A stretch of 37,892 nt of DNA from Campylobacterales bacterium. Its GTDB lineage: Bacteria > Campylobacterota > Campylobacteria > Campylobacterales > JALSKU01. Location: the NCBI GenBank assembly GCA_027065125.1, contig JAMOOV010000127.1, positions 1 through 37,892 on the forward strand. The letters run 5' to 3'. Position numbers and translations under genes: made by a program. The notes under the pieces are model-generated. The model was given only the letters and a program-made list of their open reading frames with translations. It had not been told where the DNA came from and searched no databases. Positions 21,035 to 23,973 of this stretch are shown one piece after another (positions within the stretch are counted from its first letter, which is position 1; every line of letters starts with the position of its first letter).

Positions 21035-21484
21035 TTAAATTGTTTCTATCATACTGTCTTGTTTATATCTATACTTTTTTACTTTTTTTATCATAAATAT
21101 CGAAGGAACTCTATAAACATTAAATCTTTGTATAAGAGCCAATATCGTATTGATACCCGTAGTCAAATAGATAACTCTATCACTATTTTTAAACCTTTTT
21201 TGATATATATCCACAGCTAAAATCTTAACTTTGTTTTTAACTCTTTTTAGTATCTTTTGAATATCATTTTTTCTTGAACTATAAATCACAACCACATACT
21301 CTTTATCCATAGGTTTAAAAATATCTTTCTTTTCATAAAAGACCCATTTGTCAAAATTGATAAATTTATATTCCGCAAACCTATAGTTAAAGTAGGCATA
21401 AGCACTTGCTATCATAAGAGCACCGAAAAATGATGCGAAGAGATAATTAAGGGAGAAGATTTTTCTCCCTTTTTTTAAAGCCAT
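21035..21484 (-). CDS. Membrane-anchored hypothetical protein with a degenerate thioredoxin-like fold
   Basis: N-terminal TM; FNVYRVPSIFMIKK resembles the Trx cis-Pro strand; no CxxC. Abuts trxA (21484). Confidence 0.6.
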   Translation of the reverse strand: MALKKGRKIFSLNYLFASFFGALMIASAYAYFNYRFAEYKFINFDKWVFYEKKDIFKPMDKEYVVVIYSSRKNDIQKILKRVKNKVKILAVDIYQKRFKNSDRVIYLTTGINTILALIQRFNVYRVPSIFMIKKVKKYRYKQDSMIETI

Positions 21485-21801
21485 TATAAGATTGAGTTTA
21501 GTTTATCCGCAATAACTTGCTTTCCTGCTGCTCCAATCATTTGATCTACAAGTTGTCCATCTTTAAAAAAGAGAATTGTGGGGATAGATCTGATACCATA
21601 CTGAATAGCTATATCTTGCTCTTCATCGGTATTAACTTTACAAATCTTAGCTTTTCCATCAAAATCTTCCGCCAACTCTTCGATAACCGGAGCTATCATT
21701 CTGCAAGGTCCACACCATGGTGCCCAAAAATCAACTAAAGTTACACCCTCTTTTATAGTATCGTTAAAATTAGATGCATTTAATTCTATATATTTTCCCA
21801 T
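21484..21801 (-). CDS. trxA: Thioredoxin
   Basis: VDFWAPWCGPCRMIAPVIEELA, YGIRSIPTILFFKDGQ. Confidence 0.98.
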   Translation of the reverse strand: MGKYIELNASNFNDTIKEGVTLVDFWAPWCGPCRMIAPVIEELAEDFDGKAKICKVNTDEEQDIAIQYGIRSIPTILFFKDGQLVDQMIGAAGKQVIADKLNSIL

Positions 21802-21912: not shown

Positions 21913-23367
21913 ATGGTCATAAAAGATTTTAATTTCAAAAATGAAAACATAAAAATAGATATTCAAAAAGAGATAAATAGTATATTAAATAAATTAACTA
22001 CATACAATCCAAAACAAAATAATCAAAAACTTTTTACAGATATAAAACATATCCTATCATATATAAAACAAAAAGGTGGGATTAAAACTTTACCAAAATT
22101 TCAAAAATTTGATAATTTAATTAAAACTATAAATACCAAGCTAAATAAATATCCAACCGATAAATTTTTACAAAATATAAAAAATGAAATATCATCTATA
22201 CCCAAAAAAGATAGTAATTTTTTTCAAATAAACAAAGATAATGAGCCAATTAAAAATCTCTTCAAATTAGTGGACTTGACAGAAAATTTAATTGAAGCCA
22301 ATAAAGATAACAAAACTATACAACTTTTAAAAGCTCACAAAGATATTCTTAATAAACTCTTGAGCAATCATATAAATAAAAACGAAATGGCAAAAAAAAC
22401 ATATTTAAATTTAGATATAAAAAATAACAAAGAGTTAAAAGATATTTTATCAAATATAAAAAACTTGATAGAAAACATTAAGCAAAAGATTCCTGCCAAT
22501 GCCAAAGATACTCATAAAATATTGTCTCAAATATCCTCCATAATAAAAAACAACACAAAAGAATCAAATCAGATAAAAGTAGAAAGCTTTGAGCAAATCA
22601 TTAAAAAAACGATAAAAAAATCCCAAGGATTAAAGATATCTTTTTATGGAGAAAAACACAATATAAAACATATAGGAAATATAACAAATAACTTAAATAA
22701 AATAGTCAAACTCATACAAGACAATCCGAAGTTAAAATCATTCAAACAAACAATTCAGAATTTTACAAAATCCATAGAGCAAATCAACTTAAAAGACAAT
22801 ATACAAAACTCTGGCATTTTGTATGAATCAAAAATTGCACACAATATAGACGACAAAAACATTTCAAACAATCCTATTGTAAAACAGGATATCAAAGCTA
22901 CTCTACTCGATCTAAAAAATGATATCCATATATTCAAAGACTCAAAAGCTACATCTCTTATAGACAAAACACTCACACAAATAGAATCTTTTCAAACCAA
23001 TTCGCTTATAAGTTCCACATTTATATCATATGTCCCATTTTTGTGGGAAGGGCTAAAAGAGGGTAGCATGCAGTTTGACAAATTAAAAAAAGAGGATAAT
23101 TTTAGCTGTAAGATAGAGTTATCTCTTGAAAAATATGGTGATTTACATATGTTACTTTTGCTAAATCAAAACAGTATTTCAATTGGTATAGAGGCAAAAA
23201 ATACAGAATTTGAAAAAAAAATAAAAAGCAATATAAAAGAGTTAAAAAAAAGGTTAAATGCCATTTCACTAAAATCAAATATATTTTTTGTAAATAGAAA
23301 AAACGACCCTTTTTTAAACAATTCATATGATAATAAAATAGATATAGGAATGGATCTTAAAATATGA
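21913..23367 (+). CDS. Lys/Asn-rich protein with FliK (Flg_hook)-like C-terminus; putative flagellar hook-length control-like protein
   Basis: C-terminal FSCKIELSLEKYGDLHMLLLLNQNSISIGIEAKNTEFEKKIKSNIKELKKRLNAISLKSNIFFV resembles the FliK hook domain pattern; translationally coupled to a FlhB C-terminal-like gene. Confidence 0.55.
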   Translation: MVIKDFNFKNENIKIDIQKEINSILNKLTTYNPKQNNQKLFTDIKHILSYIKQKGGIKTLPKFQKFDNLIKTINTKLNKYPTDKFLQNIKNEISSIPKKDSNFFQINKDNEPIKNLFKLVDLTENLIEANKDNKTIQLLKAHKDILNKLLSNHINKNEMAKKTYLNLDIKNNKELKDILSNIKNLIENIKQKIPANAKDTHKILSQISSIIKNNTKESNQIKVESFEQIIKKTIKKSQGLKISFYGEKHNIKHIGNITNNLNKIVKLIQDNPKLKSFKQTIQNFTKSIEQINLKDNIQNSGILYESKIAHNIDDKNISNNPIVKQDIKATLLDLKNDIHIFKDSKATSLIDKTLTQIESFQTNSLISSTFISYVPFLWEGLKEGSMQFDKLKKEDNFSCKIELSLEKYGDLHMLLLLNQNSISIGIEAKNTEFEKKIKSNIKELKKRLNAISLKSNIFFVNRKNDPFLNNSYDNKIDIGMDLKI

Positions 23368-23618
23368 TTAAAGAGAAAAAAGCCGTAGCATTAAAGTATG
23401 ACAACAAAAGAGATAAAGCCCCCAAAGTTATCGCTAAAGGCAAAGGAGAAGTGGCAAAAAATATTGTCAACATCGCAAAAAAAAGAGGTGTTCCTATCAA
23501 AGAAGATAAAGATTTAGTACAAATGCTTAGTCAAATAGAATTAAATAAAGAAATTCCTCCAAAATTGTATAAAGCAGTTGCTGAAATATTTAGTTTTATA
23601 TATAAATTGACCGGTTAA
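23364..23618 (+). CDS. FlhB C-terminal domain-like protein (FlhX/YscU-type export-switch homologue)
   Basis: KAVALKYDNKRDKAPKVIAKGKGEVAKNIVNIAKKRGVPIKED...NKEIPPKLYKAVAEIFSFIYKL matches FlhB downstream of its NPTH autocleavage site. Confidence 0.9.
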   Translation: MIKEKKAVALKYDNKRDKAPKVIAKGKGEVAKNIVNIAKKRGVPIKEDKDLVQMLSQIELNKEIPPKLYKAVAEIFSFIYKLTG

Positions 23619-23643: not shown

Positions 23644-23973
23644 TTAATAAATAGTTATATTTTCTATCATCTCTATACTGTTTTTCTTAACAATAACAGC
23701 ATCTACACAATAATCCAAATCCATTCTATGTTTCAAAAGATAGTAGTTTATAGTTTTTACAATTTTTTCCACTTTCTTTGGAGTAATTGCATAAACGGGT
23801 TCAAAATTTTTACCACTTTTAACCTCTACAAAATGCAAAATTCTATGTTTCAAAGCGATAATATCAATTTCGCCAAATTTTGAGTAAAAATTTCTTTCAA
23901 CTATACTATAACCATTTTTTTGTAGAAATTTACAAGCTTTATCTTCAGCAACATTTCCAACAATTCTACTCAT
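23644..23973 (-). CDS. yraN: YraN family (UPF0102) endonuclease-like protein
   Basis: AEDKACKFLQKNGYSIVERNFYSKFGEIDIIALKHRILHFVEVKSG: PD-(D/E)xK-like YraN pattern. Confidence 0.92.
   Translation of the reverse strand: MSRIVGNVAEDKACKFLQKNGYSIVERNFYSKFGEIDIIALKHRILHFVEVKSGKNFEPVYAITPKKVEKIVKTINYYLLKHRMDLDYCVDAVIVKKNSIEMIENITIY

Follow-up and report, generated by a model that had tools for sequence, protein, structure and literature searches.

A FliK-like gene overlapping flhX, which encodes a stand-alone FlhB C-terminal domain: a putative accessory module for the flagellar export switch in Campylobacterota

The window, that is, the whole stretch of 37,892 nucleotides of Campylobacterales DNA analyzed here (contig JAMOOV010000127.1), carries on its plus strand a FliK-like gene, referred to below as FliK-X, which is directly followed by flhX, a gene for a stand-alone cytoplasmic C-terminal domain of FlhB (FlhB-CC). 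The two genes share four bases, ATGA, and this overlap as well as both reading frames are established at the positions that an earlier note on this DNA had assigned to them. The features of the locus are the following:

21484–21801, minus strand: trxA (thioredoxin; TIGR01068), the divergent flank
21913–23367, plus strand: FliK-X gene, 484 aa, with a Lys/Asn-rich N-terminal part and a C-terminal Flg_hook domain
23080–23295, plus strand: Flg_hook or type III substrate-specificity-switch domain, residues 390–461 of FliK-X (PF02120, predicted model, PDB folds)
23347–23364, plus strand: C-terminal tail GMDLKI of FliK-X, residues 479–484, conserved and predicted to be unstructured in isolation
23364–23367, plus strand: ATGA stop/start overlap of the FliK-X gene and flhX, seen in the sequence
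23364–23618, plus strand: flhX, stand-alone FlhB cytoplasmic C-terminal domain, 84 aa (TIGR00789, predicted model)
23499–23507, plus strand: residues 46–48 of FlhX (K-E-D), which differ between partnered and unpartnered FlhX
23644–23973, minus strand: yraN (UPF0102; PF02021, NF009152), the convergent flank

Judging from the arrangement of the two frames, translational coupling of FliK-X and flhX is to be expected, and the 4-base overlap of the pair recurs in relatives as well as in Bacillus and Pseudomonas. The setting between yraN and trxA was correctly described in the earlier note, but it is peculiar to the window genome and three close relatives. A scan of 31 other open reading frames of the window against Pfam or NCBIfam revealed no flagellar gene. 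The 5’ region aligned over four relatives displays conserved AT-rich blocks. In a sigma-70 scan upstream of the pair, promoter-like sites barely exceeded chance, and inspection by eye of the same region recognized no sigma-54 or sigma-28 site; the assumption of a flagellar sigma-factor promoter upstream of the pair was dropped. A 149-aa protein with a membrane-like N-terminal stretch is encoded on the minus strand between trxA and trxB (21035–21484). Its similarity to thioredoxin is only sub-threshold (PF13098, E = 0.02), and it is retained in three relatives (L124, L126, and L158).

Residues 390–461 of FliK-X matched the Flg_hook family PF02120 with an E-value of 7e-8 and 32.6 bits, above the gathering score of 29.8, while the hook domain by itself reached 35.3 bits. 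A profile scan of the 484-aa protein returned no other family with a convincing match. Hook-domain proteins adjoining flhX (class X) and those adjoining flgD or located elsewhere (class C) were aligned separately. PF02120 was matched by 27 of the 28 X-class domains, and the X and C profiles aligned to each other in hhalign with an E-value of 1e-6 and a probability of 91%; on the basis of these sequence comparisons, the hook domains of the two classes are homologous. With the X profile, each Campylobacterota X protein tested scored 114–169 bits and each C protein at most 30 bits, the C profile mirroring this result, but the scores describe the classes and are not an independent test, since most of the scored proteins had built the profiles. 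FliK-X lacks the canonical L.P..LG core motif of FliK, which marks the canonical subgroup and not the whole PF02120 family, and it is not linked to flgD/flgE, a place that another fliK occupies in the window genome.

The predicted model of the window X domain, with pLDDT values above 90 in the core, consists of four strands, a helix, and a further strand. Among PDB structures, the substrate-switch domain of PscP matched it best (5cuk; probability 1.00, E = 0.022), and FliKC (2rrl) was matched with a probability of 0.84, so that both profile and fold agree with the FliK-like C-terminus proposed in the earlier note. Since the E-values of the fold matches are modest (E > 0.01, TM 0.38), the fold backs the sequence evidence and would be insufficient alone. 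FliK-X appears to be a new, distinct class of FliK with a floppy, conserved C-terminal tail.

FlhX scored 123.3 bits against TIGR00789 (flhB_rel; cut-off 117.35) and aligned only to the last 74 positions of PF01312 (262–335 of 335). With its 84 aa, it contains neither NPTH nor a membrane domain, both of which are present in the other FlhB of the genome, a full-length protein of 353 aa in which NPTH is intact. As previously suggested, FlhX begins at the point at which this FlhB would once cleaved (MIKEKKAVALKYD versus NPTHYAVAIRYD), although the FlhB residues had been given as AVALKYD and actually read AVAIRYD in this genome. The FlhX model (pLDDT 90) superposed on FlhB-C of Aquifex and Salmonella (3b1s/3b0z) with a TM of 0.86 and, together with the TIGR00789 score, upholds the description of the small protein as a pre-cleaved FlhB-CC. 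The identities and folds of both domains are thus established.

FlhB-C forms a four-stranded sheet with the cleavage site between beta1 and beta2 (PMC3640470); because FlhX begins at about this site, it is devoid of beta1. FlhX retains the early-substrate pocket of Salmonella FlhB, which is lined by A286, P287, A341, and L344 (PMC9307174), as A19, P20, A73, and F76, the correspondence having been assigned manually with the conserved APKV and AVAE blocks as anchors. Among these, P20 is invariant, A19 and F76 are nearly so, and position 73 is alanine in 16 of 17 partnered FlhX.

In addition to the full FlhB, the window genome carries a canonical fliK with a YKPP...L.P..LG core, followed by flgD and flgE. 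The pair is therefore a second set, and, as anticipated in the earlier note, it lies apart from the canonical fliK and flhB, which were found on other contigs. This is different in family f9, where the canonical FliK profile detected no FliK in any of the eight genomes, while it readily found FliK in five controls. In the four f9 genomes examined, fliI, flgD, and flgE lie together with no fliK between them, and FliK-X is present in the family as the sole hook-domain protein. In Nitratiruptor, nearly all flagellar genes were reported to be located in one cluster with few outside, such as ‘flhX-fliK’ (Mo et al., 2022, PMC9321776), a description to which f9 probably corresponds. A canonical fliK is also missing from G105, a genome of the same genus as the window genome; this absence is not taken as evidence for a replacement by FliK-X, since flgD is absent as well and the fliK locus is thus probably absent from that assembly. 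In family f7 (G008:C1:377832, G122:C1:2475812, G207:C1:2181098), a canonical-type FliK is found ∼2 kb from full-length flhB.

A comparison of 91 distinct tails identified the last six residues as the most conserved part of the FliK-X tail, positions -12 to -7 being more variable. Position -6 is G in 71 of the 91 tails, position -4 is D, N, or E in 97%, position -3 is hydrophobic or K in 99%, position -2 is K or R in 80%, and position -1 is A, V, I, or L in 97%. The last 15 residues of FliK-X are unstructured in the model (pLDDT < 50), and a tail that is conserved yet unstructured fits the expectation for a docking motif. In Salmonella, FliK has been proposed to act via its last residues on the cleaved FlhB domain, ejecting FlhB-CC (PMC13344023).

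TIGR00789 matches were obtained in 263 of 298 Campylobacterota genomes, about 255 of them with two matches and eight with one, while 35 genomes had none. When two matches are taken as FlhB plus FlhX, an assignment confirmed by frame length in a subset of genomes, FlhX is present in about 255 of the 263 genomes with FlhB and in none of the 35 without it; in the single-match genomes examined, the match is the full FlhB. The distribution of PF02120 is similar (261 of the 298 genomes), and the X profile gave strong matches (E < 1e-12) in 148 Campylobacterota genomes. Both genes could be placed in 129 Campylobacterota genomes; in 127 of these, flhX lies immediately downstream of the FliK-X gene and on the same strand, and of the remaining two, one is a fragmented assembly. 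In G120 (family f3), FliK-X and flhX are located on separate contigs (C55:103417 and C33:124649), apparently a real separation. There are also 43 genomes with a known flhX and no X protein, in which the neighbors of flhX differ and include, for example, a gene reading as riboflavin synthase. That so many genomes possess FlhX without FliK-X indicates that FlhX can act alone.

In an independent set of genome contigs, almost every flhX locus whose upstream sequence was long enough carried an X protein there, a proportion biased by the retrieval of this set with motifs typical of partnered FlhX. The pair was present there in one Nitrospirota and two Nitrospinota genomes, and in the Nitrospirota locus (L185, 1653–2370) it comes after genes that read, by sequence, as csrA and fliW. 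The further search in other phyla used plasmid records. In Bacillus velezensis, the pair, which we take from B. subtilis to be ylqG-ylqH, is flanked by rnhB and sucC, its two genes overlap by four bases just as they do in the window, and the tail of YlqG reads KVDVKI. No PF02120 match was obtained for this Bacillus partner, and the X profile reached an E-value of only 0.046; homology of its hook domain is suggested by gene order and tail, the profile match being weak. The B. velezensis ylqG (L202, 1780–3483) is labeled ‘glycosyl transferase’, probably wrongly. In P. aeruginosa, the pair adjoins ccmA, and its upstream gene is annotated as FliK (PF02120, 67 bits), its downstream gene as an EscU/YscU/HrcU switch protein, again with the 4-base overlap seen in the window. 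The pair is not a one-off but has been kept through many flagellate families of Campylobacterota and in other phyla, and FlhX was already known; a unique inserted module was ruled out because the pair is widespread. Its conservation and its restriction to genomes that possess a flagellar FlhB are likewise established.

Residues 46 and 48 of FlhX are K or Q and D, respectively, in all 17 aligned partnered proteins, and F and N in all 10 unpartnered ones. In the tree, the unpartnered FlhX form one long-branch clade (support 99/99). The co-variation therefore represents a single event that may be a coincidence of descent, and is only suggestive; many independent partner losses as proof of co-evolution were ruled out for the same reason. 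The unpartnered F46/N48 type is found in families f2, f5, f10, f12, and part of f8. Family f8 holds both FlhX types, hinting at transfer or old duplication.

We infer binding and function of the two proteins from these observations and consider it probable that FliK-X and FlhX, coupled in translation, form a module that is accessory to the flagellar export switch. FlhX would represent a permanently ‘cleaved’ FlhB-CC domain without a membrane anchor, to which (or to the FlhB-CC of FlhB itself) the tail and the switch domain of FliK-X would bind, and the pair would tune the timing of the export change from hook-type to filament-type substrates. After FliK has ejected FlhB’s own CC, FlhX might re-occupy FlhB, by which the early mode would be kept or reset; alternatively, FlhX might be removed from the gate. 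In the window genome, the pair would work beside canonical FliK and FlhB, while in the f9-type family without canonical fliK it probably fulfills all the tasks of FliK. A reporter joined to the initial 36 codons (108 bp) of C. jejuni Cj0849c, a gene taken as the FliK-X orthologue by its locus number (next to flhX) and gene order alone, was exported via the Yersinia flagellar system (PMC2764114). By analogy, FliK-X may be exported by the flagellar system. The module is opposed by the many genomes that have FlhX but no FliK-X, by the absence of L.P..LG from the FliK-X class, by the single origin of the FlhX co-variation, and by the weak profile match of the Bacillus partner.

A different explanation is that FlhX serves merely as a spare FlhB-CC part, the FliK-like gene being no more than a duplicated fliK in the same operon. 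This would be in line with H. pylori HP1575, an FlhX described as a ‘spare part’ able to replace deleted FlhB-CC (Wand et al., 2006, by its title as cited in PMC3040844 and PMC2923134), and with the persistence of FlhX without FliK-X in one clade. However, the nearly invariant linkage and the 4-base overlap across phyla point to a joint function, as do residues 46 and 48, which track the presence of the partner, and we regard the explanation as unlikely.

The junction of the two proteins allows yet another reading, since ADVIIT directly precedes NPTH in FlhB, and the X tail, approximately [VIFM][DNE][IV][KR][VAI] and GMDLKI in the window, directly precedes the start of FlhX. As a split FlhB-C, the FliK-X tail would supply the missing strand beta1 of FlhX in trans, and a soluble, permanently switched FliK/FlhB-CC complex could change places with the FlhB-CC of the gate, thereby resetting or holding the switch. 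Six tail residues cannot prove a replacement of beta1, and we find this reading quite unlikely.

If FliK-X were the actual hook-length ruler in these bacteria and the gene adjoining flgD were dispensable or otherwise employed, this would account for family f9, which has only FliK-X, and for the length of FliK-X, which varies widely from about 300 to 1000 aa, as expected of a ruler. The window genome and most families nevertheless retain both genes, and it is the other gene that has the canonical motif and precedes flgD and flgE, as is canonical for fliK, which leaves little room for a ruler function of this kind. A role of the pair in a non-flagellar process is very improbable, for although it lies among housekeeping genes in the window and adjoins ccmA in Pseudomonas and rnhB/sucC in Bacillus, none of the 35 genomes that lack a flagellar FlhB contains it, and it is adjoined by genes reading as csrA and fliW in the Nitrospirota locus.

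Parts of the accessory module that we favor are already known, namely FlhX as a protein and the designation ‘flhX-fliK’, mentioned once in passing, and Pseudomonas records carry both names. Among the open-access papers searched, we found none that treats the pair as a module or describes its function, the tail, the two types of FlhX, or the situation in family f9. The FliK-X class, the two fixed FlhX differences in the partnerless clade, and the occurrence of one family with FliK-X as the only FliK appear to be new. It has long been asked how FliK makes FlhB switch its export specificity; according to the conclusion of a 2026 study in Salmonella, FliK uses its last residues to remove the cleaved domain of FlhB (PMC13344023). 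In several phyla, a switch domain of the FliK type and its conserved tail have been retained beside a free version of this very FlhB domain, usually in overlapping genes. The pair thus offers a small soluble system for the direct measurement of binding and structure, and family f9 a natural case in which FliK-X seems to be the only FliK.

Among the known systems, the FlhX family (TIGR00789), including H. pylori HP1575, C. jejuni Cj0848c, and B. subtilis YlqH, comprises the same stand-alone FlhB-CC without NPTH and without a membrane part. The FlhX of the Helicobacter family carries F46/N48 and has no FliK partner, whereas the window FlhX carries K46/D48 and has its partner present. The flhX-fliK of Nitratiruptor, named in passing outside the main flagellar cluster (PMC9321776), is the same pair; in contrast to family f9, which resembles Nitratiruptor and is without a canonical fliK, the window genome has a canonical fliK as well. 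With canonical, flgD-linked FliK, FliK-X has in common the C-terminal Flg_hook domain and its fold and a variable N-terminal region, but it differs in the absence of L.P..LG, in its tail (GxDxKx versus xxIPxYx), and in its linkage to flhX instead of flgD. The needle rulers PscP/YscP and their partners PscU/YscU share the fold of the switch domain (5cuk) and the partner domain (5cul), respectively; they belong, however, to the injectisome and not to the flagellum, and partners of the YscU type are anchored in the membrane and cleave themselves.
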